A DNA stretch of 64,000 bases. Origin: an uncultured Muribaculaceae bacterium (GTDB taxonomy: Bacteria; Bacteroidota; Bacteroidia; Bacteroidales; Muribaculaceae). How positions within the stretch are numbered: the first letter of the stretch is position 1; every line of letters begins with the position of its first letter. The stretch spans positions 47,456-111,455 of the forward strand of contig CALUMJ010000004.1 in assembly GCA_944321715.1 (NCBI GenBank), written 5' to 3'. Under the pieces are notes generated by a model. That model was not told the DNA's origin. It ran no database searches and saw only the letters and a list, made by a program, of their open reading frames with translations. The position numbers and the translations under genes are program-made. Shown here piece by piece: positions 4,102-29,559 of the stretch.

Positions 4102-6345
4102 ATGAGTCCTATTTTCACAGTAATCATTATTGTACTGGCGTTGCTTGCTATCTTGGACCTGATAGTGGGCGTATCCAACGATGCAGTGAATTTCCTGAAT
4201 TCGGCGTTGGGTGCAAAAATTGCTCCGATGAAGGTCATCTTGACGGTGGCTTCGGTGGGCATATTGATTGGTGTCGTGACGTCAAACGGCATGATGGAAG
4301 TGGCCCGCAGCGGTGTGATGCACCCGGGCATGTTTACTTTCCGCGAAATTATGTTCCTGTTTGTGGGTGTGATGCTCACCGATGTGATTTTGTTGAACAC
4401 ATTTAATTCGCTTGGCTTGCCCACTTCGACCACCGTGTCGCTGATTTCGGAGTTGCTCGGTAGTGCTGTTGCGGTGGCATCATTCAAGATTTATGCCGAC
4501 CCAAGCCTGAGCATATCCGACTTAGGGTCGTTTATCAATAGCGGCAAGGCGTTGGTAATCATATCGGGCATATTGTTGTCGGTGGTGATAGCATTCACTG
4601 TCGGTGCGATATTGATGTACTTTAGCCGCATCCTTTTCACATTCCGTTATGCCAAAGGTTTGAAACGGTTTGGTGCAGTGTGGTGCGGAATTTCGATAGT
4701 AGGCATTTTGTATTTTGCTATTTTCCAAGGCATGAAGAGTTCGGGGCTTTTCTCGGCCGAAGTGCTTGGGTATATCAACGACCACATCTATGTGGTACTT
4801 TTCGTAACATGGGTGGTTTCGTCGTTGATAATGTGGATTTTGCAACTGTGCAAGGTGAATATAATGAAAATCACCATCCTTGCAGGAACAATGGCACTCG
4901 CACTTGCGTTTGCAGGTAACGACCTTGTCAATTTCATAGGTGTTCCGCTTGCCGGACTCGATTCATACATGATTGCCCTTAACAATGGAGCTAATGAAAA
5001 TATGCTGATGGGCGAACTTGCCAAGCCTGCGCAAGCCAACATTTGGTTCCTCGTCGTTTCGGGCATAGTGATGATATTGACGCTGTTTTTCTCGCGCTCG
5101 GCGATGCGTGTGGCCGAAACACAACTTAACCTGTCGTCGCAGCACGACGAGGAGGAGCGTTTCGGTTCATCCCCGGCATCACGTTCGTTGGTACGTACAG
5201 CGCTTGCACTTAATACATTCTATAAGCGCATTATGCCCGAGGCATTGCTCGAACGCATCAACAAGCGTTTCGTGCCGTTGACCGAGGAGGAGCGTGGGTC
5301 GGCAGCATACGACCACATCAGGGCCGTTGTAAACCTCACGGCGGCTGCTATCCTTATATGTATCGGCACATCGTTCCAGTTGCCGCTTTCCACCACCTAC
5401 GTGGTGTTTATGGTAGCAATGGGTTCGTCGCTTGCCGACCGTGCATGGGGCCGCGATAGTGCCGTTTACCGCATCACTGGTGTGATGGTGGTGATTTCGG
5501 GTTGGTTCCTGACTGCGGTTGTGGGATTCACGGCTTCGTTCATTATCGGCATTCTGTTGATGTGGGGTGGCTGGATTTCATTTGTCATCATACTCATAAT
5601 ATGCGGGTATGTGCTGTGCTATAATCTGATTTTCAAATCCAAGAAGAAAGAGGATGACGAGGTTGAACGCTTGCAGCTCAAAGAAGATGCCAATGCCGAG
5701 GACGTGCTTTACTCATGCACCGAAACTGTGGTCAGCACCATGGAAGATGTGTCGTCGATTTACAACCACATGCTTGTCGCTCTATATACCGAGAATCGCA
5801 AAGTGCTGAAAGAAACGGTTGCGCAGTCGGAAGCCTTGTATAACGAAGCCAATAAGCGCAAATACAATATGTCGGTCACGTTGAAACGACTCGAAGAGCA
5901 GAACATCGAAACGGGCTACTTCTATGTGCAAGTGGTGGACTACCTGAGCGAGGTGTCGAAGGCGTTGTTGCACTGCACGCGTCCGGCATACGAGCATATC
6001 AATAACAACCACCGCAGCTTATCGGAAAGCCAGATAATGGACTTGAAAACTATCAACGACGAGGTTGATAACATATTTGCAACTATCAACCAAATGTTGC
6101 GTAACAAGGATTTTACTGGCATTGACGAGGTGATGACTATGCGTGACGAATTGTTCTCGACTATTGCCGAGAGCATAAAGAACCAAATACGCCGATTGAA
6201 GAATCAGGAGATGAGCACGCGTGCCAGCGAGCTGTACCTTAACATCTTGAATGAAACCAAGAATATGGTGTTGCAATCGCGCAATCTGCTCAAATCGCAA
6301 GCATATTTCCTTAATAAGATACAGGTGTCGAGCACTCGTCCGTAA
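4102..6345 (+). CDS. Pit-family inorganic phosphate transporter with C-terminal PhoU-like domain
   Basis: 747 residues. The two inverted PiT repeats each show the GxND signature: VGVSNDAVNF near residue 25 and FAGNDLVNFIGVPLAG near residue 272. There are ten or more membrane helices. The last 200 residues (about 540-747) are helical and charged, of the PhoU-like/DUF47 type that often accompanies PiT proteins in Bacteroidota. The protein should import phosphate by cation symport. It starts 35 bp after the histidine kinase and is followed by a strong hairpin, so it may be the last gene of that operon. Length and fusion are normal for this phylum. Confidence 0.92.
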   Translation: MSPIFTVIIIVLALLAILDLIVGVSNDAVNFLNSALGAKIAPMKVILTVASVGILIGVVTSNGMMEVARSGVMHPGMFTFREIMFLFVGVMLTDVILLNTFNSLGLPTSTTVSLISELLGSAVAVASFKIYADPSLSISDLGSFINSGKALVIISGILLSVVIAFTVGAILMYFSRILFTFRYAKGLKRFGAVWCGISIVGILYFAIFQGMKSSGLFSAEVLGYINDHIYVVLFVTWVVSSLIMWILQLCKVNIMKITILAGTMALALAFAGNDLVNFIGVPLAGLDSYMIALNNGANENMLMGELAKPAQANIWFLVVSGIVMILTLFFSRSAMRVAETQLNLSSQHDEEERFGSSPASRSLVRTALALNTFYKRIMPEALLERINKRFVPLTEEERGSAAYDHIRAVVNLTAAAILICIGTSFQLPLSTTYVVFMVAMGSSLADRAWGRDSAVYRITGVMVVISGWFLTAVVGFTASFIIGILLMWGGWISFVIILIICGYVLCYNLIFKSKKKEDDEVERLQLKEDANAEDVLYSCTETVVSTMEDVSSIYNHMLVALYTENRKVLKETVAQSEALYNEANKRKYNMSVTLKRLEEQNIETGYFYVQVVDYLSEVSKALLHCTRPAYEHINNNHRSLSESQIMDLKTINDEVDNIFATINQMLRNKDFTGIDEVMTMRDELFSTIAESIKNQIRRLKNQEMSTRASELYLNILNETKNMVLQSRNLLKSQAYFLNKIQVSSTRP

Positions 6346-13702: not shown

Positions 13703-13921
13703 CCAAACTACCTATTTATGCCTCATAAATCGTATAGTGTTAAAATGTGCGATATGGCCTGAACACCTGAGATTTTTCGGGGTTCGTCAATTCTTGCTTG
13801 CCATGAAATTATTTATGAATGTTGGCAATGCCAAGGCAAGCAAGAACGCCTTAATTGGGTTGTTGATGGTGTTAATGATTTGATAAACAAGAATTTATGG
13901 AGTAAACACTGTTCAAAATCT
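13703..13921. other. Non-coding stretch between the ABC-F gene and the peptide locus
   Basis: No convincing gene, terminator or promoter. A 26-codon frame at 13803-13883 starts MKLFMNVGNAKASKNAL but has no recognisable relatives or upstream signal, and I do not call it. Confidence 0.4.
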
Positions 13922-14035
13922 ATCCGTTTCCTTGCAAGAAACGGACGGTCGTGTATCAATCTAATATTCAATATCTTAAGACTGTTTATTCATTATTTTG
14001 ATAGGCAACAAAAATCTTTTTTCTACATTACAAGA

Positions 14036-14075: not shown

Positions 14076-14084
14076 ATACATTTG
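14052..14084 (+). promoter_or_regulatory. Promoter driving the peptide locus
   Basis: A perfect -7 box TACATTTG (14077-14084) is preceded after 21 nt by TTTC (14052-14055), three of four bases of the -33 box. Transcription would begin near 14091, inside the right inverted repeat, about 100 nt before the precursor ATG. Confidence 0.55.
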
Positions 14085-14190
14085 CATTATAGCCATCCGT
14101 TTCTTGCAAGGAAACGGATGGAAATTAAATCCACACTGGCGGAATCCGAAAAGCCCTAATAGAGTAGGAAGTAATTCAATATCAGAAGAT

Positions 14191-14310
14191 ATGAAAACTC
14201 TTAATTTCCAAGTGGTAGCTGCTGCTCAGAATGTAAACTCAATGTTTGAGTACAGCAACTTTAGCGAGAGTGGACCGTGTGATATGTGCTGGGGAGACCT
14301 AAGCCTTTAA
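14191..14310 (+). CDS. Candidate RiPP precursor peptide, 39 residues
   Basis: A short frame starting MKTLNFQVVAAAQ and ending SGPCDMCWGDLSL. It sits directly in front of five radical-SAM enzymes, the normal place for a precursor. The first 27 residues would be the leader and the tail GPCDMCWGDLSL the core. The tail holds two Cys (30 and 33), Trp34 and two Asp (31 and 36), all plausible targets for thioether formation or methylthiolation. There is no Gly-Gly leader site and no secretion signal. The frame is open back to an ATG at 14104, but the ATG at 14191 is preceded by AGGAAG and gives a natural leader, so I prefer it. I recognise no family for it. Confidence 0.7.
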   Translation: MKTLNFQVVAAAQNVNSMFEYSNFSESGPCDMCWGDLSL

Positions 14311-14317
14311 GCCGGAG

Positions 14318-14360
14318 GGACGAGGTTAAATGGAGCTACTGTTTTCCTCGTCCATTTTCT
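14318..14360 (+). terminator. Attenuator-like hairpin between precursor and first enzyme
   Basis: An 8-bp perfect stem, GGACGAGG (14318-14325) with CCTCGTCC (14346-14353), has a 20-nt loop and is followed by ATTTTCT. It begins 7 nt after the precursor stop and ends before the next start. Such a leaky terminator or RNA-stabilising hairpin commonly keeps precursor mRNA above enzyme mRNA. Confidence 0.55.
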
Positions 14361-14380
14361 AAAACATATTCTTGCAGACT

Positions 14381-15685
14381 ATGTATTGGTCAAAATATAA
14401 TATATTATCAAAATCAGAAAAATACGATTATCTTTTGTTCAACACGATGTCGTTGGCGTTTATTCGGATTGGCAAAGATGATATTGGAACATGGTTGGAA
14501 CTCAAAGATACCCCGGATGCATATAAGAACTTCAGCAATTATGCCTTTTTACTAAAAGCGCATATAATAGTAGAGAACCAAGAAGACGATTTTAATGTAT
14601 ATCTTGCCGACATCCTGAAAAACAGGTACAACCCTGTTGACATGGCGCTAACGATTCTGCCGACACGTGGCTGCAACTTTGGGTGTATTTATTGTTATGA
14701 GCAGGACCGCCCCATGATAAATATGGATGAGCAAACCGAAAGGGCAATATTGGCTTTTGTAAAATCCAACAAGCATCTGAAACGCCTTAGCGTTGTGTGG
14801 TATGGAGGTGAGCCTCTTATTAATTTCCATTCGATAGAAAGGTTGTCCAAGGCATTCCTCGCTATGGGCATCGAGTACTCGGCAAAGATGGTTACAAATG
14901 GATACTTGCTGACAAGCGAAATTGCGGAAAAATTGGAAACGCTCGCTATCCGCAATATACAAATTACACTTGATGGCCCGGAGGCGGTCCACAACAAACG
15001 GCGGATGCTTCTGGGAGGGCAACCTACCTATCGTCGCATAATGGAGAATCTGAAATATCTTCTAAGTGTCAACGGAACCATTACGGTTGATGTACGCACA
15101 AATGTGGATAGGCGCAATATGGCTGAGTACAACACTTTTTATCGGCAGTTTAAAGCTGAAGTAAACGACCCTCGCATAAATCTTTACCCAGGCTTTGTGT
15201 CCGACCTTTTGTCTTCGGAATGCGTATCGGCGGAATACAATATCAGTGCAGGGGGATATAAAGCTCAATTCGCACTTGACATATTCAACAACTACGGCAT
15301 AGAGATAAAATCGTTTTTGCCTAAATATAGGCGCCATAGTTGTGTCGCAAGCAAGTATTGGGCATTTGTCATAGGCCCCGAAGGCGAACTCTACAAATGT
15401 TGGCGTATGGTAGGAAACAAGCAACAAGAAATAGGGAACGTAAATACAGGTGCCATGGACATGGCCAAATTTTCACGCTACCTTGTCGGGGCCGATTATA
15501 CGCAAGACAGGAAATGCCTTGACTGCGAATTTGTCACACTTTGTGGTGGCGGTTGCCCATTAGTGCGTATGCGCAACAAATACGAAGGAACGAATATAAA
15601 TCACTGCTGCCCCGAAAAGTCGAGTATGGAGAAACTGATGGAAATGCGGTATGAAATGTTCTTGAAGCAGCAGCGTGCAATGTGA
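14381..15685 (+). CDS. Radical SAM/SPASM peptide maturase 1
   Basis: 434 residues from the ATG at 14381 (an in-frame TTG lies at 14372). The N-terminus MYWSKYNILSKSEKYDYLLF is of the kind seen at the start of many SPASM peptide maturases. The radical-SAM cluster motif is C98-x3-C102-x2-C105 in RGCNFGCIYCYEQ. GGEPL near residue 147 is the SAM-binding GGE motif. The C-terminal SPASM region holds further Cys for auxiliary Fe-S clusters (HSCVASKYW, YKCW, CLDCEFVTLCGGGCPLV, HCCPE). Relatives install thioether or C-C crosslinks on peptides; the reaction here is unknown. The most likely substrate is the 39-mer just upstream. Its stop overlaps the next start (TGATG). Confidence 0.9.
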   Translation: MYWSKYNILSKSEKYDYLLFNTMSLAFIRIGKDDIGTWLELKDTPDAYKNFSNYAFLLKAHIIVENQEDDFNVYLADILKNRYNPVDMALTILPTRGCNFGCIYCYEQDRPMINMDEQTERAILAFVKSNKHLKRLSVVWYGGEPLINFHSIERLSKAFLAMGIEYSAKMVTNGYLLTSEIAEKLETLAIRNIQITLDGPEAVHNKRRMLLGGQPTYRRIMENLKYLLSVNGTITVDVRTNVDRRNMAEYNTFYRQFKAEVNDPRINLYPGFVSDLLSSECVSAEYNISAGGYKAQFALDIFNNYGIEIKSFLPKYRRHSCVASKYWAFVIGPEGELYKCWRMVGNKQQEIGNVNTGAMDMAKFSRYLVGADYTQDRKCLDCEFVTLCGGGCPLVRMRNKYEGTNINHCCPEKSSMEKLMEMRYEMFLKQQRAM

Positions 15686-17007
15686 TGAAGAAAGTATATA
15701 TCGAGACATACGGGTGTAGGATGAACCTTTGTGACAGCGAGATTATCCTCGGTATATTGTCGGGGCATGGATATGGATATACTGGTGTCTTGGCCGATGC
15801 CGATTGTGTAATTCTCAATGGTTGTTCAGTCCGTGAAATTGGCCATACAAAGGTATTTGAGCGTATTGCGGAGCTTGAAAAAACTCTTGCGTCACACGTT
15901 ATACTCATTATTGCAGGGTGCGTATCCACGCAACTTGATGATTCTTTTTTTGCTGCCTATCCGCGTGTGCAACTTGTCATACACTCTACGGCTTATAAGC
16001 ATATTTTCGAGGCAATAGGAGCACTTGCCCGAAACCAATCAACGCATCTTATTGTAACTGGTGACAACAATGATGAAATATACGACCGGCAGTTGCCTTT
16101 GCGATTATTGGAAGATAATGTTACGGCGGCGGTCACAATAATGAAAGGTTGCGACTTTTATTGTAGCTACTGCATAGAACCATACACGCGAGGCGGACGG
16201 ACAAACCGCAGTTACGAAGGGATTATGGCAGAGATTGCCGACATACGAGATAAAGGTTATCGAGAAATCACCCTTTTCGGGCATATTGTGGATTTATGGG
16301 AAGGTGAACATGACGGGGGGCCCAAGAATTTCGCCCAGCTGTTGTCCGACATAGCAGAAGCCTGTCCCGAGCAGCGCATAAAGTTTATATCATCGCATCC
16401 CTTGACTTTTACCGACCAAATGGCCGATGTGATGGCGAGGCACAAAAATATCATGAGGGTTGCCCATCTTCCGGTACAATCGGGGTCGAATGAGGTTCTG
16501 CGCAGGATGAACCGGAAATATACGGCAGCCCAGTTTGTTGAACGCATTTATGCGATAAAAGAGATAGTACCAGATATAAACATTGTCACAGACATTATGG
16601 TGGGCTTTCCCGGTGAAAAGGAAAAAGATTTTGAAGCGACGCTTAAGTTACTTGATACAATACGTCTGACCGATATCAATGTATTTAAGTTTTCGATGCG
16701 AAAAGGAACACCGACGCACAAGAAGTATAGCGATGATGTGCCCCCCTATGTAAAAGAAGAGCGGCGGCGCAAGGTATATTCCTTGGTTGAAAAAATCCGT
16801 AACGAGGCGGCTCGTAACCTTGTAGGAACGACGCAACGTGTAGTGGCGGAATCCCGATATAAGGAGTCCCGTTGGTGGAGTGGGCGGGATATGTGCCACA
16901 GGACAATTTATTTTGTTCCAAAACAGGGGATGGCTATAGGGGAACAGTGCGATATTGTGGTTCGAGGTGTTGAAGACGGCAAATTGTATGGAGAATTGTG
17001 CTTATGA
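15685..17007 (+). CDS. MiaB-type radical SAM methylthiotransferase homologue (enzyme 1 of 3)
   Basis: 440 residues starting MKKVYIETYGCRMN. The N-terminal MTTase domain has three Cys in TYGCRMN, LNGCSVRE and AGCVSTQ for the auxiliary 4Fe-4S cluster. The radical-SAM motif is C156-x3-C160-x2-C163 (KGCDFYCSYC). LPVQSGSNEVLRRMNRKYT is the family block, and the last 60 residues form a TRAM-like domain. MiaB methylthiolates i6A37 of tRNA. Placement inside this operon, one base behind a SPASM maturase, argues for a peptide rather than a tRNA substrate; that is inference. The start uses the TGATG overlap. It ends in an ATGA overlap with the next gene. Confidence 0.88.
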   Translation: MKKVYIETYGCRMNLCDSEIILGILSGHGYGYTGVLADADCVILNGCSVREIGHTKVFERIAELEKTLASHVILIIAGCVSTQLDDSFFAAYPRVQLVIHSTAYKHIFEAIGALARNQSTHLIVTGDNNDEIYDRQLPLRLLEDNVTAAVTIMKGCDFYCSYCIEPYTRGGRTNRSYEGIMAEIADIRDKGYREITLFGHIVDLWEGEHDGGPKNFAQLLSDIAEACPEQRIKFISSHPLTFTDQMADVMARHKNIMRVAHLPVQSGSNEVLRRMNRKYTAAQFVERIYAIKEIVPDINIVTDIMVGFPGEKEKDFEATLKLLDTIRLTDINVFKFSMRKGTPTHKKYSDDVPPYVKEERRRKVYSLVEKIRNEAARNLVGTTQRVVAESRYKESRWWSGRDMCHRTIYFVPKQGMAIGEQCDIVVRGVEDGKLYGELCL

Positions 17008-18284
17008 AAGTGCATGTTGAAAACATCGGTTGTTTTAAGAACCTCGTAGATTGCGAGCGTTTGCTTTATGCGATTGAACAAATGGGAATTGAGATTTCGT
17101 TCGGCAAGTTGCACGATTCTGCCGACATTGCCATCATCAATACTTGTGGTTTTATCAATGATGCAGAAACAGGTTCGATTGCGCTCATTACACGTTATGC
17201 CGCACTGAAAAGGGAAGGAACCATCTCCCAATTATGGGTAATGGGGTGTTATGGGCAAAAAATGGGTGAGAAATTGGCTACGATGATACCTGAAATTGAC
17301 AAGGTATTTGGCAACTTCAACTGGAATGAAATTCTGGTCAGGATAGGCTTGGTCGATGCTATCGGCGTGCAACGGCATATAACAACTCCCCCGCATTATG
17401 CCTACTTGAAAATTTCGGAAGGTTGCAGCAGGCCTTGTGCTTATTGTATCAAACCTGTCTTGAACGGTCCATTGAGGTCTGTTCCCATGGAACGATTGAT
17501 AGAGGAAGTGAAATGGCTTGTCGGTCAAGGTGTATGTGAATTACAGTTGGTGGCACAAAATCTTACGGACTATGGACTTGACTTGTACGGGGATAAGAAA
17601 ATAGCCGAACTTGTGGAGCGTGTTGCTGACATTCCGGGTGTTGAATGGATTAGGCTACATTATGCTTATCCTATAGGATTTCCTACTCGGTTGCTCGATG
17701 TAATGAGAGAGAGGAGCAACGTATGCAAGTATCTCGACATGGCATTGCAGCATTGTAATGCAAAAATACTCAGGCTTATGCGCAGGAGTATGTCGAAAGA
17801 AAGTCTTGCCACTCTGCTCGCAAAAATTCGCAACAGCGTCCCGGGTATCTATTTGAGGACGACTCTCATGGTTGGATTTCCGGGAGAAACCGACGAGATG
17901 TTTGAAGAACTGTGTGCATTTGTCAAAGAACAGAAATTTGAACGGATGGGTGTTTTTTGTTATTCTGCCCAGCAAGGTTCTTACAGTCATAGTAACTATG
18001 TAGATACAGTACCCGAAAATGTAAAGGTATCAAGGGCTTTCACGCTCATGGATATACAAAAAGAATATTACCAATCGCTTAATTCCTCTCTTGTGGGGCG
18101 TGTCCAAAAGGTTATTGTGGATTGTTGCCAAGATGGCAAGTACCACTGTCGCACTGAACACAGTACACCTATGGCCGACCCTAAAATCATAGTTGACAGT
18201 AGTCGCCCATTGAAAAGTGGTTCTTTCCAGATGGTGCGGATTACTGAAGCTGTCGGTAAGGATATGAGAGGTGTTGCCCTATAA
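17004..18284 (+). CDS. RimO-like radical SAM methylthiotransferase homologue (enzyme 2 of 3)
   Basis: 426 residues from the ATG at 17004. Auxiliary-cluster Cys lie in ENIGCFKN, INTCGFIND and VMGCYGQK; the radical-SAM motif is C141-x3-C145-x2-C148 (EGCSRPCAYC). Segments such as WIRLHYAYPIGFPTRLLDVM, ALQHCNAKILRLMRRSMSK and TTLMVGFPGETDE read like RimO, the enzyme that methylthiolates an Asp of ribosomal protein S12. A C-terminal TRAM domain is present. RimO is the one MTTase known to act on protein, and the candidate precursor core contains two Asp, so an Asp target is attractive. This could also be the genome's only RimO, but its operon position argues against that. Confidence 0.87.
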   Translation: MKVHVENIGCFKNLVDCERLLYAIEQMGIEISFGKLHDSADIAIINTCGFINDAETGSIALITRYAALKREGTISQLWVMGCYGQKMGEKLATMIPEIDKVFGNFNWNEILVRIGLVDAIGVQRHITTPPHYAYLKISEGCSRPCAYCIKPVLNGPLRSVPMERLIEEVKWLVGQGVCELQLVAQNLTDYGLDLYGDKKIAELVERVADIPGVEWIRLHYAYPIGFPTRLLDVMRERSNVCKYLDMALQHCNAKILRLMRRSMSKESLATLLAKIRNSVPGIYLRTTLMVGFPGETDEMFEELCAFVKEQKFERMGVFCYSAQQGSYSHSNYVDTVPENVKVSRAFTLMDIQKEYYQSLNSSLVGRVQKVIVDCCQDGKYHCRTEHSTPMADPKIIVDSSRPLKSGSFQMVRITEAVGKDMRGVAL

Positions 18285-18295
18285 ACCAGCAAAGT

Positions 18296-19576
18296 ATGAA
18301 CATATTTTCAAAGAACAATATAGCACTGCTACCTAAGCCTGGTTCTCCAGATATAATTGTATATCTGCCATTTGCAGGATATGCAACGGTAGTAGATTTG
18401 GCGGAATTGTCATGCCTGGAGTCGGCCATTTCGGAAACAAGTAGGAGCCATATTTCTCCTCATTTGGCAGAAATTATCGGAAAGCTGAACAAGGACACTG
18501 TGCATTTGCGTGAAACACCTCGCACGGTCGATGGGATGCGTAGTTTGATGTTGCTCCCTAATAACAAATGCAATTTCAAGTGTTCATATTGTTATTCGGC
18601 CAAAGGACGGACAAATGGCGAAATATCCCCGGGCATACTGAAATCGGGCCTTGCTTATTTCCTTAATCCTCAAAGGGCGAACAATGAACGGCTGTCCATC
18701 TCGGTATTGGGCGGAGGCGAGCCGTTATTGTCGTGGAAGATACTTAGGCCCGCTCTTGAATATGCTCTATCAATGAGCGCAAAGCGAACAAAAGCATGTC
18801 CGATTTCTCTTGTCACAAATGGGTCGATATACTCGGATGAAATTGCATCGTTTTGCATCAATAACAATATAAGCATAAGTGTCTCGTTCGATATTTTGCC
18901 GGATGTGCAGGATATGCAACGCGGGCATTGGAAAGAGGTGTCGGACAATATTAATCGTTTTGCAGAAGCTGGCATTGATGTGGCTCTCAATACGGTCATC
19001 AGCGACAGGAATGTTGCGAGAATGGTTGAAATGGTAGAGCATCTTCTTATTCATAACCATTTGGTAAAGAAGGTTTCGTTTAAAACATTGATTGCCAAAA
19101 ATTATTTCCAGGACATTGAAAGCCGTTGCAAATACTACGAATCTTTTATTTCAAATTTTTTCAAAGCAAAGAAAGTGGCCGACAAGCATGGCATTTGGCT
19201 TACTTGCTCTTATATGAACACTTGCATAACCCTTACAGACCGTTACTGCCACGGGAAATTTGTCATTACCGCCGATGGAGATATTTCTGTATGCCACACG
19301 GTCGGTTCGAAGCACGACGACTTATACGACCAGTTTGTATTCGGGCATATAGATGAATTGACCGGGCAGGTCACTATCGATGATAACAAACTTTCCAAAA
19401 TACTCCGGCATGACGTTTACCACAATGCTTCATGTGAAGACTGTCCTGCTCGTTGGCATTGCGCTGGCGGTTGTTATGCCGACCATTTCCATATCGACAA
19501 GAAGGAACATGAAGCTTATTGCGAATCCATGCGGCATTTCCTCGCATATTATCTAATCTATAAATACAAATTATGA
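18296..19576 (+). CDS. Radical SAM/SPASM peptide maturase 2
   Basis: 426 residues. The radical-SAM motif is C92-x3-C96-x2-C99 (NKCNFKCSYCYS). LGGGEPLLSW is the GGE motif. The C-terminal SPASM part has YCHGKFVIT, CHTVGS and CEDCPARWHCAGGCYADHF. It is only distantly similar to maturase 1, and its N-terminal 75 residues are of a different kind, so it probably performs a second, distinct modification or recognises a different part of the peptide. It starts 11 bp after the RimO-like gene and overlaps the next by ATGA. Substrate and chemistry are inferred from the neighbourhood only. Confidence 0.88.
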   Translation: MNIFSKNNIALLPKPGSPDIIVYLPFAGYATVVDLAELSCLESAISETSRSHISPHLAEIIGKLNKDTVHLRETPRTVDGMRSLMLLPNNKCNFKCSYCYSAKGRTNGEISPGILKSGLAYFLNPQRANNERLSISVLGGGEPLLSWKILRPALEYALSMSAKRTKACPISLVTNGSIYSDEIASFCINNNISISVSFDILPDVQDMQRGHWKEVSDNINRFAEAGIDVALNTVISDRNVARMVEMVEHLLIHNHLVKKVSFKTLIAKNYFQDIESRCKYYESFISNFFKAKKVADKHGIWLTCSYMNTCITLTDRYCHGKFVITADGDISVCHTVGSKHDDLYDQFVFGHIDELTGQVTIDDNKLSKILRHDVYHNASCEDCPARWHCAGGCYADHFHIDKKEHEAYCESMRHFLAYYLIYKYKL

Positions 19577-20820
19577 AGACCGTATATATCAACAGTAACG
19601 GGTGTGCCGTATTGAAGCATGAAACAGAACGTATAGCTCGGTATTTCAAGTTGAACGGGTGGGTGTTGGCAAAGGGGCCCGAAAGCTCGGACGTGGTGGT
19701 TATGACCTGTTGCGGGGTAACACATAATGAGGAGGACGAGGCCATAGAGATGCTAAGGCAATTGGAAAATGTCCGCGCAAAAGATAGCCAAATCATAGTG
19801 TCGGGGTGTATGCCAGCATTTGCCAAAGACAGGGTCCTTGGCGTTTCGCCCAATGCCACCATATTGAAGTATGCCGAGCTTCCATGCCTTGATGGCATAA
19901 TTATGGCAGATACTCCATTCGAGTCGGTTTATTATAATGCACATCCCATGCTTGAAACTGAGGATAGCTCGGTGTGCGACAAGGATAAAGACCTGAGTGT
20001 GATGCGCGGAATAGACCGATTGTGTGGCGGCAGCGAATGTGAGCGGGCGTGGAATATATCGACATTGCGCAAATATATGTGGGATGATAGCCTAACATTC
20101 CAGATAAAAGTATCATACGGATGCCCCGGCAATTGCAGTTATTGCGCCACCAAATTGGGTATAGGGGAGTTCAGGAGTGTCGATAAAGATTTTGTAATAA
20201 AGCAATTTGTCGAGGGATTGGACAAGGGGTACACTTATTTTATGCTTATGGGGGATGAAATAGGAGCTTATGGGCGTGACATAAATACGTCGTTGCCCGA
20301 TTTGCTTCAGCAGATGTATGATTTGTCGAATGGGAAAGCCGTCATTTCCATCCGGTACATCCATCCTGACATATTGGTCAATTTGTATGACAGGTTGAAA
20401 AAGTTTTTTGCTACAGGATTTGTTAATTACTTCTGTTGTGCCATACAGTCGGCAAGTCCTGCGGTATTAAAACGCATGAACAGGAATCCGGATATAGAAC
20501 CGTTCATACGTTGCATGGAGGATATGAATAGGAATAAGTACCCGGTTAGCAAGCATACACAAATCATCGTAGGCTTTCCGGGGGAGACATCTGAAGATGT
20601 GCTCTTGACAATGGATGCTATTCGCCGTTGCAAGTTCGAGCATATCAACATTAATCTGTTTAGTCCTCGTCGCCACACGGCAGCGTGGAGCATGGAAGAG
20701 ACCGTGACTCAAGAAGAAAAAATGTTTAGGGCAGGACTTATTAGATATTCCTTGAATTTATACAAGAAAGCATTGTTGTATGATGCGATTAAAAGCTCCA
20801 TGCTGGGCGCGGCAAAATGA
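19573..20820 (+). CDS. Divergent methylthiotransferase-like radical SAM enzyme lacking TRAM (enzyme 3 of 3)
   Basis: 415 residues beginning MKTVYINSNGCAVLKHETER. The three N-terminal Cys of the MTTase fold are kept (NSNGCAVL, MTCCGVTHN, VSGCMPAF), as is the radical-SAM motif C184-x3-C188-x2-C191 (YGCPGNCSYC). SASPAVLKRMNRNPD and IIVGFPGETSEDV are MTTase blocks. About 60 extra residues lie between the two Cys sets. The protein ends about where the TRAM domain of the other two would begin (KALLYDAIKSSMLG). Loss of this RNA/substrate-binding domain suggests a substrate unlike tRNA. It starts inside the SPASM gene by ATGA and is followed 18 bp later by the S9-type peptidase gene. Confidence 0.82.
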   Translation: MKTVYINSNGCAVLKHETERIARYFKLNGWVLAKGPESSDVVVMTCCGVTHNEEDEAIEMLRQLENVRAKDSQIIVSGCMPAFAKDRVLGVSPNATILKYAELPCLDGIIMADTPFESVYYNAHPMLETEDSSVCDKDKDLSVMRGIDRLCGGSECERAWNISTLRKYMWDDSLTFQIKVSYGCPGNCSYCATKLGIGEFRSVDKDFVIKQFVEGLDKGYTYFMLMGDEIGAYGRDINTSLPDLLQQMYDLSNGKAVISIRYIHPDILVNLYDRLKKFFATGFVNYFCCAIQSASPAVLKRMNRNPDIEPFIRCMEDMNRNKYPVSKHTQIIVGFPGETSEDVLLTMDAIRRCKFEHININLFSPRRHTAAWSMEETVTQEEKMFRAGLIRYSLNLYKKALLYDAIKSSMLGAAK

Positions 20821-20838
20821 AACGGTTTTCTCCAAACA

Positions 20839-21858
20839 ATGAAAAAGCGGATATTCATAGAGAGCGGTTGCAGCGATGGTGTAAGAAACGAGGTGTTTAA
20901 ATATGATTACACATCTTCGATGGATAAATACATGCGCAGGGATGAATATGGCTTCTGGCATTCTTGTGGAGTGGGTATATCTTTGGAACAGGAAACATTG
21001 TGCCGTGTGTTTTACAAAAAAGGGTGGTCGGATATCGGAACCGAATATGCGCTTCCCGCAATCCAAAATAAAGCGATTGTTCAAATCAGGGAACAGGTGA
21101 ACGACCGTGGGCTTGAAGTGGTTATTATCCATGAGAAGCCCGAGAGAGCCCCGGCAATCGTGATTTGTCTTGGAGGTCCTATAATCCCTGTGCCCGATTT
21201 CATGGCTGCGGGTTCTATATATAGTCATTTTATTCAGCAAGGTTACGCCTTGGTCGTTCCACTGCGGCGAGGCGTGTCGGAGATTAACATGGAATGGGAA
21301 CGAGCATTGGACGGCCATTATGGAGAATATGACGTAGAAGATACCATCGAAGCGACAGATTTTGTATTAGCCAGCCATGCAGATTGGATTGATGCAGAAA
21401 ATGTTTTCCTTTATGGGGGAAGTTATGGTGGGTATGTGGCGGAACTGATTGCAGGAAAGGCAAACTCAAATAAAAGATATAAAGCAATCATTGCTCATTG
21501 TGGAGTATATGACATGGCGGCTTATCCGTGGCATAACCAGGGCATACCCGAAGAGACGATGGACACATACGGCAAAACGCACGACAAGTCCTTGTATGCG
21601 CATCGAGTAAAGGGAATTTCTCCCAAGACATATATTTCCAACTGGAATGTGCCCGTATTGCTGGTACATCATTTAAACGACACGACGACATGGGTCGGGC
21701 AATCGGTAGCGGCATATAATGATGCCTTGAAATTAAACAAGCAGGTAGCCTTGCTTGTTGTACGCGGCCCTCATACTTATGATATTCCCAATAAAGAGAT
21801 TTTGTTTCACGAATTAACCACGTTCTTTAATAAATGTTTGAAAATAAGATGTATATGA
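20839..21858 (+). CDS. S9-type (prolyl oligopeptidase-like) serine peptidase/alpha-beta hydrolase
   Basis: 339 residues. The nucleophile elbow GGSYGGYVAEL places Ser195. Asp281 (HHLNDTTTW) and His312 (RGPHTYD) complete a catalytic triad in the right order. There is no beta-propeller, only an N-terminal extension of about 100 residues, and no signal peptide, so it is cytoplasmic. In this operon it is a good candidate to cut the leader from the modified peptide; a role as an intracellular hydrolase is the alternative. It starts 18 bp after the third MTTase-like gene, and its stop overlaps the M42 peptidase start. Confidence 0.85.
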   Translation: MKKRIFIESGCSDGVRNEVFKYDYTSSMDKYMRRDEYGFWHSCGVGISLEQETLCRVFYKKGWSDIGTEYALPAIQNKAIVQIREQVNDRGLEVVIIHEKPERAPAIVICLGGPIIPVPDFMAAGSIYSHFIQQGYALVVPLRRGVSEINMEWERALDGHYGEYDVEDTIEATDFVLASHADWIDAENVFLYGGSYGGYVAELIAGKANSNKRYKAIIAHCGVYDMAAYPWHNQGIPEETMDTYGKTHDKSLYAHRVKGISPKTYISNWNVPVLLVHHLNDTTTWVGQSVAAYNDALKLNKQVALLVVRGPHTYDIPNKEILFHELTTFFNKCLKIRCI

Positions 21859-22889
21859 ACAGCAATTTTTTGATGGCCTTGCTATCCACCCCTACGGTGT
21901 CGGGGTTTGAGGACGCAGGGTGCAAGATATATGAAAGCTATCTCAATGGGTACGTTGATGAATGCAAGAGGGATATTTTAGGGAACTCCTATGCAGTCCT
22001 CGATGCTCCCGAAGAATTTCCAATGGTCATGGTAGAAGCACATATCGATGAAATTGGTTTCCAAGTATTGTACATTGCCGATGACGGTCGTATTTACGTC
22101 CGCAAGAATGGTGGGATAGACATGCAGTGCATACCGGGAAGCAGGGTCGTGATATACGGGAATTCGGGGGAGGTGCATGGCGTTATCGGGAAAACCCCGG
22201 TTCACCTGCAAAATGGCCAGGAAAGGGAGAAAACCCCGGAATTATCGAACTTATGGATAGATACAGGGCTTGAAGCCGAAGAGGTGAAAGGGAAAGTTAA
22301 TGTGGGAGATGTGGTGGCTTTGAAACAAGATGCGGAGATGATGGGCAAATACCGTGTAACATCGAAGGCATTGGACGACAAAATCGGGGTTTATGTGGTG
22401 GCCGAGGTTATGAAACGGTTGGGAAATGAGCGGGACTCGCTTCGATGCAAAGTTCAAGGTGTCGCCACCGTGCAGGAGGAAGTCGGTTGCAGGGGAGCTT
22501 TGGCAAGTGGATATACTATTATGCCCGATGTCAGTATTAGCATTGATGTGGATTTTGCAACAGACGTTCCCGGTTGTTCCAAAATGAAATACGGTGACAT
22601 CCGTTTAGGTCAAGGAGTAGTCGTTGCATGCTGCCTGGATAGTGATATGCGCATCGTGGAACAACTACGAGGAATAGCATCCGAAAAGTCAATTCCTATA
22701 CAATATTCTGCGCGTCCTTATGCGACAGGAGGGACGAATGCGTCAAGGATTCGCACTATCCGAAAAGGTGTACGCACTGTTTTGTTGGGTATTCCATGCC
22801 GGTATATGCATACACCGGTCGAGGTGTGTGATATGCGCGATGTTGAGGCAGCAATATCCTTGATTACCGAATATGTCAAATCGATATAA
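21849..22889 (+). CDS. M42-family metallo-aminopeptidase
   Basis: About 346 residues from the ATG at 21849 (an upstream in-frame ATG at 21834 would add five). Metal ligands of the M42 fold are visible: His in VEAHIDEIGF, Asp in ALDDKIGVY, the catalytic Glu pair in TVQEEVGCRG, Asp in SIDVDFATD and His in CRYMHTPVE. TGGTNASRIR is also typical. M42 enzymes are dodecameric cytoplasmic aminopeptidases. As the last gene of the operon it may trim the N-terminus of the core after the serine peptidase has cut. It overlaps the peptidase gene by ten bases. Confidence 0.88.
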   Translation: MYMNSNFLMALLSTPTVSGFEDAGCKIYESYLNGYVDECKRDILGNSYAVLDAPEEFPMVMVEAHIDEIGFQVLYIADDGRIYVRKNGGIDMQCIPGSRVVIYGNSGEVHGVIGKTPVHLQNGQEREKTPELSNLWIDTGLEAEEVKGKVNVGDVVALKQDAEMMGKYRVTSKALDDKIGVYVVAEVMKRLGNERDSLRCKVQGVATVQEEVGCRGALASGYTIMPDVSISIDVDFATDVPGCSKMKYGDIRLGQGVVVACCLDSDMRIVEQLRGIASEKSIPIQYSARPYATGGTNASRIRTIRKGVRTVLLGIPCRYMHTPVEVCDMRDVEAAISLITEYVKSI

Positions 22890-22975: not shown

Positions 22976-24301
22976 TTACATATCATCCATAGTGAGCAAT
23001 CTGCTCTCAATCTCATAGTTGAACAAAACCTTCTTGCGGAGAGCTTCCACCTTTTGCGCGAACAATTCCGGCTTGAAGTTTTTGGCTTGCCGTTTTACTT
23101 CAGCCACCAGCGCACGCTTGTCTTCCGCATACAACCCTATGATGTCGATTTCATGCTGCTCTTTATTGTTTTTCCCCTGCCACCAAGAACCTATTTCGGC
23201 AAAATCCTTGCTCTCCATCATCTGCTGGCGGAAATACATTTCCAGCGCGAGTCCGGAGAAAGTTGGATAATCATCCTTTATAATGTTTGCCAACCGCTCG
23301 TAGTTCTGTATCTCAATGTAGCTTTGATGCTTGATGAAATAACGGAACCAAAACCGCAGGAACATATCCGATACCTCATAACGGACAGACTGTGAACTCT
23401 CTTTGGAAAGTATCGGACGCTTTTTCTTAACCAGATTATAATCCTCTTCCAACCGTTTCAGTTGTCCCCCCAAACTGATGCCGCCCAAAGCGGCCTCCAT
23501 TTCCGGCAATGTATTCCTACCATTGGATATGGCGGAGAGTATGGAGAAATAATTCCCGTATTTCTTGCCGAACTCCTGTATCAACAGTGCCTGGCCTTCA
23601 GTGAGGAAAGAAGACTCTGGCTGCAACATGAAATCGACCATGCTTTCCATATCCGTACAGCCGTTGTCCATGAATTGCTCAATATATTTTGGAACGCCGC
23701 CGGTGAAGGTGTATAACGCCAGCAAATCGTCTTTCGTGTACTCCGGTTTATGGTCTGCCAGTATTTCTTTCAATACGGGAGTCGTGAAGGGGAATAACTT
23801 CATGATGCTGTCTGCACGACCGTACAAGGGCTCTTTCGCATCTCTGAATATTCTGTTCATAAGCGTATAGACCGAGCCGCTGACAATCAGGTTCACATGG
23901 CTTACCTTGCGATACCTGTCCCAAGTGTCCTGCATCAGACTATATATTTCAGGATTGATATAGTAGAATTCCTGGAATTCATCAATGAGCAGGTTGAATT
24001 GCACCTGCTTTCCCAAATCCATCAGAAAACGGAACATTTCGCTGAAACTCGTAAAGACCGGAACATAAACATCCAATGACTGGCGCACTTCAGCGGTGAA
24101 GCGCATGCAAAGGTCGGCTTCATTGCTCCGGCTGACAAACAGATAAACGGTTGGCGTACCTTCACAGCTTTTGAAAATCAGGCTTGTTTTCCCAATCCGG
24201 CGCCTGCCGGTCAGTACGGTCATTTGCGAATGATTGGAAAAGGCAATCTGGCGGACTTTTTCCAATGCGGCAAGTTCTTTATCCCTGTTGTAAAACTTCA
24301 T
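22976..24301 (-). CDS. AAA-type ATPase with DUF234-like C-terminus
   Basis: 441 residues. Walker A is TGRRRIGKTSLI, Walker B LLIDEFQEF. A sensor-like segment VNLIVSGSVYTLM follows. The middle third carries a winged-helix-like part, and the C-terminal region (RFWFRYFIKHQSYIE, EIDIIGLYAEDKRALVAEVKR) is of the DUF234 type, with a nuclease-like E-x-D-I-x-G pattern. These ATPases are common as single genes in Bacteroidota and archaea; the function is unknown, and a defence or mobile-element link is often suspected. It faces the peptide operon tail to tail and is probably independent of it. Confidence 0.85.
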   Translation of the reverse strand: MKFYNRDKELAALEKVRQIAFSNHSQMTVLTGRRRIGKTSLIFKSCEGTPTVYLFVSRSNEADLCMRFTAEVRQSLDVYVPVFTSFSEMFRFLMDLGKQVQFNLLIDEFQEFYYINPEIYSLMQDTWDRYRKVSHVNLIVSGSVYTLMNRIFRDAKEPLYGRADSIMKLFPFTTPVLKEILADHKPEYTKDDLLALYTFTGGVPKYIEQFMDNGCTDMESMVDFMLQPESSFLTEGQALLIQEFGKKYGNYFSILSAISNGRNTLPEMEAALGGISLGGQLKRLEEDYNLVKKKRPILSKESSQSVRYEVSDMFLRFWFRYFIKHQSYIEIQNYERLANIIKDDYPTFSGLALEMYFRQQMMESKDFAEIGSWWQGKNNKEQHEIDIIGLYAEDKRALVAEVKRQAKNFKPELFAQKVEALRKKVLFNYEIESRLLTMDDM

Positions 24302-26844: not shown

Positions 26845-29559
26845 ATGCTACGGACGCTAAGACACATAATTATGGCATGCCTTGTACTTTATATGGCAAG
26901 TGCATGTTCTTCTACGCCAGATTACCAATGGATTAGGACTGACGGTGATGTATTATTATGGCTTCCTTCTTCAGATACAACAAAATCTTATGTCTGGAGA
27001 GGGAATGTCATTGACAGCATTGCTAATGGAAATGGCATTCTTTCTGCCTTTGATACGGAAGGCAAGGAGATTGATTCTAATGTAAATATGTTCTACGGAG
27101 CATCCTCACTAGAAGATATTATTACGATGGACGATGGAAGTCGTTATGTCGGAGCTCTTGTGGATGACAAGATGGAAGGTTTCGGCGTATTAGTGAAAAG
27201 CAATGAGGTTTACATCGGTACTTTTCATGAGAGTAAACCTGATGGCTTTCTAAAGCTCTACCGAAATAGCAAACTCTATTATGAGGGAAATTGGAAGGAT
27301 GGAACTTTCAATGGAGAAGGTACGCTTTACAAAGAAGATGGTTCGATTAAAACGGGTGATTGGGTAACAGGGCGGCTTTCTCAAACATTAGTTGATGTAC
27401 AGTTGCCACAAGGACATTACTATGGCTATGCTAAAGACGGCAATCCAGATGGACTGGGCAAAATGGATTACACAAACGGTACGTCTTATCAAGGGAAGTG
27501 GAAAACGGGATTTTGGGAAGGCGAAGGCCTGTATATCAGTAACAACGATTCTGTTTATGGTGTTTGGGAAAAAGGAAAAATTTGTGGGGACGTGATATAT
27601 CGTACTCCACAATTATACTTTGAAGGTACTTTTGTAGATAATATTCCTGTGGGTGCCGGTAATTTGGCTCAATCTGATGGCTCTTATTATTCTGGTTTTT
27701 GGCTTGATGGAAAAAGAGAAGGAAATGGAGATATGATATTCTCCAATGGAGATTCTTATACCGGAGAATGGACGAATAATGAATTTGATGGGTTCGGTGT
27801 CTATGAATATGCCGCAGCGAAAGCGGTATATCAAGGAGATTGGTCTGGTGGACTTCAAAATGGGAATGGGTTTTATAAATGTCCACAATTCAGCTATAAT
27901 GGGCAATGGGAAAAAGGTTGGATGGATGGAGATGGAGTGCTTACATTTAGTAATGGCGATAGATATGAAGGTACTGTCCATGAAAATATAATCGATGGCA
28001 TAGGCTCTTACAACTATGCCAGCGGGAATTGGTATGAAGGCGAATTTGTAAATGGCAAGATGAACGGCCTTGGAGTCTTCCAATTTAAGAATGGAAATAG
28101 ATTCGAGGGAGAGTTCTATGATGGAAAGATTTATGGAGATGGTACCATGTATCTTGTGGGAGACAAAGGTACTGTTTCAATTACCGGTTTTTGGCCAAAG
28201 GATGGGAGTTTCCCCAAAGAGGCCAGTATATTATTTGAAAATGGCGATTTGTATGAAGGCCCGTTGAAGAATGGTGTTCCCACACAGGAAGGAACATGGA
28301 TTTCAGGAGAAGAAAGACAAGAAAAGTTAGATAAGGTAAACAAATCCACACTCCATAAGGCCAATGAATTATATAAAAAACATCGAGAAACTATTAATTG
28401 GTGCTTGACGGGTGTAAGTGCTTTTGTTACAGCAGTAGAAGTTGCAAGTGCTTCTACTGGTGTTGGAGTACCTATTGCAGCATTTGCCCATGGCGTTAAT
28501 ACGGCTATAAACGTTGTTGATGCTTCTATGGCTATAGCTTCTGCAAGCATCGATGTTATGGAAAACGCACAACTAGGGGCAGACAATACGGAAGCCATTC
28601 AGAATCTCACCACCGAAGTTTCCATGAATGCAGCTTTTGTTCTAGTACCTAAAGTTGCAAAGGTTGCTGTTAAGCCTTTGAAAAGTGGAGTGAAATACGT
28701 CGTTCGAAGTCAACTGGCCGAACAAATCCTGAAAGGTGGTAAAAACATCGCAAAAAAATCTGCTTTAAGATTCATTCGAGGAAAGATCAATGGTAAGGTT
28801 ATTCGCCTGTCTGTGGCTAAAAAAGAACGGAAGATAGAGGAAACTCTGGTCCAAAGCAAAGTAACACGAAAACCAATGACTGCTTTAGGACGTTTGCTGA
28901 CACGATTCAAAGACCAAACTGTATCTTATTCTTCATACCTGAAACAATCGAAAGCTAATCCAAGTTTAAAGAATCAGTTAAGGTTCTCTAAGGAAGGAAG
29001 CTCTAAGAACTTAGGATACAATCTAAATCTTTATGGAACTCAAAAATGGTTTGATAAAAATAGACGCTACAAAAAATATCAAAATCTACCCAAATCACAA
29101 ATAGAAGCACATCATGTTATACCTTCCAATCCCAAAACAGACATAGGGAAAGAAGCTAGAGAAATCTGGGTTAAATATTTTGGTAGTGTAGACCATCCTT
29201 GCAATGGCATTTGGTTAGGTAGAGCAGACAAAGATGGTATCTATAAGGCTTTAGGAAAAGGTTCTAATCATAGTTCAAATTCTTTAAAATATGAGCAAAA
29301 AGTATGTAGAGATCTAGTGAATGCTCGCAATAAATACGAAAAGCAATATGCTAATAATCCCGAAATGATGCGACAAGTATTGGCAGAAACTGTGGATAAT
29401 CTCAAAAAACAATTGTACAAGGGCGAATTGGCTATTGGCAGTGATTCTCACACCGTACACACCGTATGGAGTATATTTAAAAATAAGAATAATCCAGGCA
29501 TTATTTCTAATGCCGCGCAAAAAATAATGGTACCAATTTTAAACTTAGCGACAAGATAA
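26845..29559 (+). CDS. MORN-repeat lipoprotein with C-terminal AHH-type nuclease domain (polymorphic toxin)
   Basis: 904 residues. The N-terminus ends in a lipobox (YMASAC, Cys21). Residues about 90-480 are a long array of MORN repeats with the pattern GxGxxxxxxGxxYxGxWxxG (e.g. DGLGKMDYTNGTSYQGKW, GNGDMIFSNGDSYTGEW). Residues about 515-600 contain glycine/alanine-rich hydrophobic stretches of the pretoxin type. The C-terminus has IEAHHVIPSN with A755-H756-H757, then NGIWLG and further His (SNHSS, SHTVHTVW), matching the AHH branch of HNH/EndoVII nucleases. The domain order fits a contact-dependent nuclease effector; how it is exported is not visible. The next gene starts two bases later and is the probable immunity gene. 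Confidence 0.82.
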   Translation: MLRTLRHIIMACLVLYMASACSSTPDYQWIRTDGDVLLWLPSSDTTKSYVWRGNVIDSIANGNGILSAFDTEGKEIDSNVNMFYGASSLEDIITMDDGSRYVGALVDDKMEGFGVLVKSNEVYIGTFHESKPDGFLKLYRNSKLYYEGNWKDGTFNGEGTLYKEDGSIKTGDWVTGRLSQTLVDVQLPQGHYYGYAKDGNPDGLGKMDYTNGTSYQGKWKTGFWEGEGLYISNNDSVYGVWEKGKICGDVIYRTPQLYFEGTFVDNIPVGAGNLAQSDGSYYSGFWLDGKREGNGDMIFSNGDSYTGEWTNNEFDGFGVYEYAAAKAVYQGDWSGGLQNGNGFYKCPQFSYNGQWEKGWMDGDGVLTFSNGDRYEGTVHENIIDGIGSYNYASGNWYEGEFVNGKMNGLGVFQFKNGNRFEGEFYDGKIYGDGTMYLVGDKGTVSITGFWPKDGSFPKEASILFENGDLYEGPLKNGVPTQEGTWISGEERQEKLDKVNKSTLHKANELYKKHRETINWCLTGVSAFVTAVEVASASTGVGVPIAAFAHGVNTAINVVDASMAIASASIDVMENAQLGADNTEAIQNLTTEVSMNAAFVLVPKVAKVAVKPLKSGVKYVVRSQLAEQILKGGKNIAKKSALRFIRGKINGKVIRLSVAKKERKIEETLVQSKVTRKPMTALGRLLTRFKDQTVSYSSYLKQSKANPSLKNQLRFSKEGSSKNLGYNLNLYGTQKWFDKNRRYKKYQNLPKSQIEAHHVIPSNPKTDIGKEAREIWVKYFGSVDHPCNGIWLGRADKDGIYKALGKGSNHSSNSLKYEQKVCRDLVNARNKYEKQYANNPEMMRQVLAETVDNLKKQLYKGELAIGSDSHTVHTVWSIFKNKNNPGIISNAAQKIMVPILNLATR

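Follow-up and report, generated by a model that had tools for sequence, protein, structure and literature searches.

The 64,000-nucleotide stretch of DNA considered here (hereafter the window), which comes from an uncultured Muribaculaceae bacterium (GCA_944321715.1, contig CALUMJ010000004.1, 47,456-111,455), carries at 14191-22889 (window positions, like all coordinates below unless another stretch is named) eight open reading frames (ORFs) on the + strand. We think it likely that they form a self-contained pathway for a ribosomally synthesised and post-translationally modified peptide (RiPP), mobile among Bacteroidota, in which two radical S-adenosylmethionine (rSAM) maturases of the SPASM type and three methylthiotransferase (MTTase)-like enzymes share one short precursor. 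The genes, with the two peptide segments that matter most, are the following.

14191..14310, + strand: precursor peptide (P0001), 39 amino acids, MKTLNFQVVAAAQNVNSMFEYSNFSESGPCDMCWGDLSL
14272..14307, + strand: invariant peptide end GPCDMCWGDLSL, identical in five of five cassettes despite synonymous changes
14278-14307, + strand: predicted product CDMCWGDLSL, assuming cleavage behind Pro
14381..15685, + strand: SPASM1 radical SAM maturase (P0002), assigned by family models; the listed TTG 14372 is also in frame
15685..17007, + strand: MiaB-like methylthiotransferase-like enzyme (P0003); GTG 15682 is a possible start
17004..18284, + strand: RimO-like methylthiotransferase-like enzyme (P0004); GTG 16998 is a possible start
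18296..19576, + strand: SPASM2 radical SAM maturase (P0005), assigned by family models
19573..20820, + strand: third methylthiotransferase-like enzyme (P0006), without TRAM domain, assigned by family models
20839..21858, + strand: S9 serine peptidase of the prolyl oligopeptidase family (P0007), assigned by Pfam and by GxSxGG and GPH motifs
21849..22889, + strand: M42 aminopeptidase (P0008), assigned by Pfam; ATG 21834 is a possible start

This rightward eight-gene operon had been described in an initial annotation, and all its ORFs were recovered in the same place, order and strand, with domains that agree (Pfam UPF0004 plus Radical_SAM in P0003, P0004 and P0006, Radical_SAM in P0002 and P0005, Peptidase_S9 and Peptidase_M42). 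The overlaps of 1-10 bp reported there hold if the M42 protein starts at the inner ATG 21849, but not if it starts at ATG 21834, which gives an overlap of 25 bp. As for SPASM1, the start at TTG 14372 is probably wrong, because homologues align from ATG 14381.

Peptide, SPASM1, MiaB-like, RimO-like, SPASM2, third MTTase-like and S9 genes are found together in four further genomes (five cassettes in total), and because both this gene set and the peptide end recur, the locus is more than a product of chance. In Mediterranea massiliensis (L180, NZ_LT635836.1, a member of the Bacteroidaceae), the order is peptide, SPASM1 (77% identical to P0002), MiaB-like, RimO-like, SPASM2, M18 aminopeptidase, M42, third MTTase and S9; in RGIG10151, a Bacteroidales metagenome-assembled genome from yak rumen (L181), it is peptide, SPASM1, MiaB-like, RimO-like, SPASM2, third MTTase and S9. 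The L207 cassette has an extra 287-residue protein with no Pfam match. As far as the retrieved stretches show, M42 is present in three of the five cassettes and M18 in one, while S9 is present in all. Conservation of gene order with the small peptide, a check proposed in the initial annotation, is seen in five of five cassettes, and the case that had been named as damaging, a full enzyme set lacking a small peptide, was not seen among them. The three MTTase-like enzymes have intact cluster motifs: both CxxxCxxC and the three auxiliary-cluster (UPF0004) Cys are invariant in all three enzymes across the five cassettes.

How restricted the cassette is was gauged by several searches, in which genomes were sampled, so that the counts are not natural frequencies. 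An rSAM motif pattern derived from P0006 picked 103 stretches from the genome collection, all of which were examined; two (L091 and L136) were cassettes, namely those of M. massiliensis and RGIG10151, and the remaining 101 held other MTTases or nothing similar. With P0002, 190 genomes of one cassette host's family (that of G1079) gave three matches at E<=1e-80, all of them cassettes (L207 and L208 being new), and 379 genomes of another host's family (G1078) gave two at E<=1e-90, the known cassette and a 43% identical relative without MTTase. Among 295 genomes of the order, 12 were matched by P0002 at E<=1e-45, the window's included, and BLAST found no homologue of the cluster MTTases in 12 regions from the 11 others, some of these regions being short contigs. 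P0006 at E<=1e-45 matched only the window genome among 397 genomes of the family and 395 of the phylum (up to four candidates per genome scored among the matches listed), and P0003 at E<=1e-40 (99 genomes) yielded, besides the window copy, MTTases 26-39% identical among the matches listed. On plasmids, P0006 matched 92 records, of which the 20 listed are ordinary MTTases (21.6-25.6% identical), P0002 matched 181, of which the 10 listed are 25-31% identical, and P0001 matched none. Neither P0006 in genome and viral contigs nor P0002, P0003 and a SPASM1 alignment in viral contigs gave a confirmed relative. The pattern CDMCWGD was met in one viral stretch, where, judged by eye, an unrelated gene carries it in a different reading frame; this match was rejected as chance.

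A homologous peptide of 38-39 residues is encoded in all five cassettes (MKTLNFQVVAAAQNVNSMFEYSNFSESGPCDMCWGDLSL in the window, MKAINFQVVAAAQDANSVFGYSNFCESGPCDMCWGDLSL in L180, MNSLDFKVVAQAKAENAVNDFCNFSQNGPCDMCWGDLSL in L181, MEVKFHVVKASVEENGIFTYANFSQNGPCDMCWGDLSL in L207 and MEVKFHVVKTSVEENGIFTYADFSKNGPCDMCWGDLSL in L208, where an alternative start eight codons earlier is possible), and its last 12 residues, GPCDMCWGDLSL, are the same in each. Over the ten pairs of the five peptides, these last 12 codons have a summed proportion of synonymous differences (pS) of 0.74 and of nonsynonymous differences (pN) of 0.01, the latter being an effect of path averaging between Leu codons, as the core residues are identical in all pairs; the 25 codons before the invariant end have a pS of 0.77 and a pN of 0.34. 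Because the synonymous sites of the invariant end have diverged strongly while its residues are fixed, the peptide can be taken as a translated, constrained precursor, the end of which is under very strong purifying selection. All five peptides have a Gly-Pro and none has a double-glycine (GG) leader site. The peptide adjoining the 43% identical SPASM1 relative in G1337, MKEKITFKVVVAPQKENLSFFEREICAAKCCCYGCSGDLCGV, has a similar F-x-V-V leader and another Cys-rich end, C-x-G-D-L being common to both.

Of the enzymes, SPASM1, the maturase next to this peptide, varies least from cassette to cassette (68-77% identity, and 89% between L207 and L208, the other families ranging from 31 to 66% outside that pair), which fits a fixed substrate. 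The SPASM region is recognised by TIGR04085 in P0002 (54.1 bits, cut-off 27), and Pfam SPASM is just reached in P0005 (21.5 bits, cut-off 21.5). The best models for P0002 are the RiPP maturases TIGR04463 (215 of 525 bits), Clo7bot (TIGR04334; 198.7 of 600) and PapB (NF047865; 134.5 of 340), and for P0005 PapB (101.7 of 340), yet these scores are far below the cut-offs, which separates both enzymes from PapB-type ranthipeptide maturases, and neither reaches an equivalog cut-off among the 25 matches listed. The models that P0002 and P0005 match include those of PapB and of quinohemoprotein maturases. All 12 Cys of SPASM1 in the window and 12 of the 16 of SPASM2 are kept in the five cassettes. 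The peptidases look intact: S9 has GxSxGG and GPH in 5/5 and the acid-region pattern in 4/5 (not in L207), and the three M42 proteins all have the AHIDE, DD, EE and YMHT patterns. Relatives of SPASM1 by itself (29-43% identical) are also encoded beside other peptides where MTTases are absent, and SPASM1 homologues were therefore rejected as evidence for the whole system. Two of their neighbourhoods deserve mention in their own right: in L197, a 42-residue peptide ending CCCYGCSGDLCGV (5421-5549 of that stretch, minus strand) overlaps a SPASM1 relative, with no MTTase in the 16 kb retrieved, and in L056 a SPASM enzyme that shares 31% identity with P0002 is preceded by a tandem of three GG-leader peptides (51, 52 and 54 residues), which lie just upstream of 11907.

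What sets the locus apart is its three MTTase-like enzymes, each of which resembles a known family and departs from it. P0004 is like RimO, the methylthiotransferase of an S12 Asp (TIGR01125), in passing the equivalog cut-off (374.6 bits against 356.95; 339.8 for TIGR00089, cut-off 251), in its UPF0004, rSAM and TRAM_2 domains and in having all six cluster Cys, but unlike it in belonging to a clade of its own with the four other cassette copies, in coexisting with a canonical RimO and in having a peptide gene and RiPP maturases as operon partners. P0003, with all cluster Cys, is close to MiaB, the enzyme of tRNA ms2i6A (TIGR01574), the cut-off of which it misses by 1.5 bits (353.8 against 355.3, while TIGR00089 is passed with 384.0), but it is only 36% identical to the window genome's own MiaB versus 44-57% to the other cluster copies, and Pfam TRAM goes undetected in the window and L181 copies (the canonical MiaB of the same genome scores 41.7 bits), the L181 protein ending after its rSAM domain. 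P0006 is similar to MtaB and archaeal-type MTTases (TIGR01579, TIGR01578) in its N-terminal and rSAM domains and in its fold (MtaB, 9a6d), but it is below every MTTase cut-off (203.7 bits against 251 for TIGR00089; 221.4 for the L207 copy), has no Pfam TRAM (none in the three copies scanned) and belongs to a deep orphan clade.

Six ORFs of the window genome match the MTTase subfamily model strongly, half of them in the operon and half outside it; at 23-24 bits the model also picks up two other rSAM proteins. The three strong matches outside the operon are MiaB (480.1 bits), MtaB (401.8) and RimO (457.2), all above cut-offs, so that the operon is not needed to supply the housekeeping functions, and P0004 was rejected as the organism's RimO since a better-scoring one is encoded in the same genome. 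The survey of canonical MTTases covered three of the five hosts (the window genome, G1078 and G1079), and the latter two likewise have three MTTases each outside the cassette, grouping with canonical ones in a 55-row tree. A tree of 61 rows, made by a quick method with SH-aLRT support only, unites the five cassette copies of each enzyme (MiaB-like, RimO-like and third MTTase-like) in a clade of their own (99, 100 and 100). The first is sister of twelve canonical MiaB rows (95), the second is nested among three canonical RimO rows (98; support of the attachment point 33) and the third is grouped with twenty orphans from the motif scan (99). In all three clades the window groups with L207 and L208 (100, 99 and 100), which indicates that the set was inherited together. 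The invariant 12-mer in all five cassettes, together with canonical MiaB, MtaB and RimO encoded elsewhere, strongly supports the initial annotation in its view of a RiPP-type locus with one shared precursor.

Whether all three enzymes perform methylthiolation is a separate matter. At least one of them might do other chemistry within the same RiPP pathway (inserting sulfur but no methyl group, building a sulfur bridge or catalysing a different radical step), an idea that overlaps our preferred explanation, so that confidence in one does not exclude the other, and that we regard as possible, if on the unlikely side. P0006 gives it substance, through its sub-threshold scores, its place in a deep orphan clade, its extra Cys invariant in five of five cassettes (46, 156, 288, 289, 314 and 353) and, in an AlphaFold model (20 sequences, pLDDT 87.6), a long C-terminal helix where MiaB and RimO have TRAM. 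Yet this model matches MtaB (9a6d), MiaB (7mjv-7mjz) and RimO (4jc0) over its full length with a TM-score of 0.69-0.74 (normalised to query length; rmsd 4.6-7.6), and all six cluster Cys are kept in 5/5. Besides, P0006-like orphan MTTases occur as tandem pairs in Planctomycetota, Riflebacteria, Wallbacteria, bacterium ADurb.Bin243 and UBP16 (L182, L183, L184, L185 and L156); two of the neighbourhoods were scanned, and the pair is close to polysaccharide genes in L182 and to a ketoacyl synthase in L185.

The peptide gene is framed by signals in RNA and DNA.

14077..14084, + strand: possible promoter TACATTTG, which fits TAnnTTTG, taken by us to be the Bacteroidota -7 element
14136..14170, + strand: DUF805b RNA (Rfam RF02914), candidate cis-regulatory leader, 45.1 bits against a gathering score of 35.6
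14318..14353, + strand: hairpin 3' of the peptide stop, possible partial terminator, stem GGACGAGG / CCTCGTCC

In all five cassettes DUF805b RNA ends 20-23 nt 5' of the peptide ATG, and in the other four it scores 48.0, 47.9, 47.6 and 53.9 bits, all above gathering; TATATTTG is directly 5' of the RNA element in L181 as well. The window genome has three matches above gathering, the cassette's included, and the other two are each 22 nt before a small peptide (ending PCGKGPTNCQNQW and CAGGPTNCQNQW) adjoining a 383-residue rSAM protein, whereas the ORF behind a fourth match, weak at 27.1 bits, is lipoprotein-like and no peptide gene. None of 14 control genomes was matched in the same search, nor were the six SPASM1-relative neighbourhoods searched out of thirteen (L054, L055, L060, L062, L063 and L197), and no paper on DUF805b, or on DUF805 with 'RNA motif', turned up in the open-access literature. 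The 383-residue rSAM protein, followed by its two peptides, each with its own DUF805b, makes up a second candidate RiPP locus in this genome (contig C3, L195 4207-5997). A stem folds after the peptide stop in 5/5 cassettes (z -2.0 in the window, -7.1, -3.9, -4.1 and -4.8 in the others, relative to mononucleotide shuffles), with sequences unrelated between cassettes except L207 and L208. Upstream of the DUF805b element lies a 37-nt inverted repeat, 86% complementary (13912-13948 / 14093-14129).

From these elements a pathway can be proposed, in which (i) expression would be under the control of the DUF805b element, and owing to the hairpin behind the peptide gene more precursor than enzyme would be made, (ii) SPASM1 would recognise the F-x-V-V segment of the leader and crosslink the core, our best guess being a Cys33-Asp36 thioether (C-x-x-D), given that the G1337 peptide has C-x-G-D-L too and that PapB and quinohemoprotein maturases join Cys to Asp or Glu, (iii) SPASM2 would make a second crosslink, (iv) the RimO-like enzyme would methylthiolate a core Asp (Asp36 or Asp31), the MiaB-like and third MTTase-like enzymes modifying two further carbons and (v) aminopeptidases (M42, M18 where present, housekeeping ones otherwise) would digest the leader as far as Gly-Pro and stall there, whereupon the S9 peptidase, cutting behind proline, would take off these two residues to leave modified CDMCWGDLSL or a fragment of it, if the specificities that we assume for these peptidase families apply. 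Judged by its enzyme families, the product is expected to be both crosslinked and methylthiolated, and leader cleavage to CDMCWGDLSL is what the peptidases would predict. Peptides may be MTTase substrates, since RimO by itself is reported to act in vitro on a peptide analogue of S12; the same paper gives Asp88 as the site in S12 (PMC13063428). The E. coli S12 target loop VKDLPGV and the core WGDLSL have only Asp-Leu in common, which may be a weak hint to the target of the RimO-like enzyme.

A number of points weigh against this pathway and should be gathered here. The sites of modification and the order of steps are guesses that we draw from motifs. M42 and M18 are not universal among the cassettes, none of the five SPASM1 proteins has a Pfam match at E<=10 to an RRE domain, the leader-binding module that is common but not universal in RiPP pathways, and a single-sequence structure model of P0002 reaches a pLDDT of only 37.7. 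In L207, both the MiaB-like (359.5 bits, cut-off 355.3) and the RimO-like enzyme (357.3, cut-off 356.95) pass the models of their classical namesakes, as P0004 does for RimO; TRAM_2 is retained in the three RimO-like enzymes scanned, the L180 MiaB-like enzyme keeps a TRAM match (25.1 bits) and the MiaB model still covers the C-terminal region of P0003. Because P0004 and the L207 copies pass and TRAM_2 is kept, family scores alone leave the classical substrates possible, that is, the enzymes could be extra modifiers of tRNA or S12 with an incidental peptide in the neighbourhood, in line with the nesting of P0004 within canonical RimO rows (98). This is nevertheless highly improbable in our view, as the canonical set is kept in the three hosts examined, the cluster enzymes form separate clades and gene order with peptide and maturases is kept in 5/5. 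An invariant end directly before the stop with a hairpin behind it, in five of five cassettes and with an RNA element in front, would also fit a translated regulatory leader acting on the operon by arrest or attenuation, rather than an enzyme substrate. Such a role is improbable too, considering that constraint extends to the leader half (pN 0.34 versus pS 0.77), that a SPASM maturase adjoins the peptide gene and that the G1337 peptide combines a similar leader with another Cys-rich end.

If the RiPP pathway is accepted, what could its product be for? No transporter was identified among the genes inside the five cassettes, and since the cassette has neither exporter nor immunity gene and the core never varies, the product would more likely serve its maker (as a cofactor, metal ligand or signal) than kill rivals. 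The alternative is that an unlinked transporter exports it and that it acts outside the cell, as an antimicrobial or signal, which we hold to be possible but rather doubtful. SPASM1 relatives in other Bacteroidota do adjoin GG-leader peptides and large genes sized like those of peptidase-type ABC exporters (their identity being read from size and context); against this, the five cassettes have no identified transporter (one L207 protein, of 287 residues, having no Pfam match), no GG leader site and an identical core, which also distinguishes them from the GG-leader RiPPs of Bacteroidota. The closer parallel would be RiPP-derived cofactors such as PQQ and mycofactocin, which we take to have likewise a short precursor with an invariant core, an rSAM maturase, peptidases and no need for an exporter; the present locus differs in having three MTTase-like enzymes, no PqqD/MftB-like partner found in the operon and no linked dehydrogenase. 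Our boldest reading, which is speculative and less likely than not, is that of a cofactor or metal ligand of ribosomal origin: a fixed decapeptide in which two SPASM enzymes make crosslinks and recruits from RimO, MiaB and an orphan lineage methylthiolate up to three carbons, made and used inside Bacteroidota, controlled by DUF805b and passed between families as a cassette. As part of it, DUF805b RNA may serve RiPP precursors in general as their leader.

To our knowledge, characterised methylthiotransferases act on tRNA or ribosomal protein S12. No description of a methylthiotransferase in a RiPP pathway was found in the open-access literature, including the accessible parts of PMC13063428 and PMC8326336 (most subscription papers and preprints lie outside this coverage), and the main text of a survey of Bacteroidales RiPP clusters (PMC10352776) has no methylthio, MiaB or RimO. 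RiPPs made by rSAM enzymes are known; what appears to be new is the presence of MTTase-like enzymes in such a pathway, three at once, on an invariant peptide. The locus could have been overlooked because NCBI cut-offs would name the RimO-like enzyme RimO and, in some hosts, the MiaB-like enzyme MiaB. If our interpretation is right, methylthiotransferase chemistry has been recruited to the making of a natural product or cofactor (via a RimO duplicate, a MiaB relative and an orphan lineage, all linked to the RiPP pathway by gene order, co-inheritance and an invariant peptide), which would suggest a possible substrate for some of the orphan MTTases and a functional lead for DUF805b RNA.

Movement of the cassette between Bacteroidota, which we consider probable as part of the overall explanation, is suggested by its composition and surroundings. 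GC3 (GC content at third codon positions) is 0.44-0.52 in the operon versus 0.58-0.67 in ten flanking genes. The upstream ABC-F gene has 77-81% DNA identity in four sister species, in which blastn found nothing of the operon within 13-16 kb around that gene, and no P0006 relative was found in 8/8 genomes of the same genus (E<=1e-45). The flanks differ among the genes scanned, with sigma-54 and an AAA ATPase in L207, an acyl-CoA dehydrogenase and ETF alpha in L208, Fic in L181 and a DDE transposase and a tyrosine recombinase in L180, where we would also read a second transposase and a relaxase-like ORF.

As for the neighbouring genes in the window, the ABC-F gene on one side of the operon has a strong copy (72-100%) in eight of nine genomes of the genus, and the ATPase_2/DUF234 protein right behind the operon (22976-24301, minus strand) is found in three of nine. 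Further on, at 26845-29559, a low-GC stretch encodes a 904-residue protein that combines MORN repeats with an AHH nuclease match at its C terminus and looks like a polymorphic toxin.

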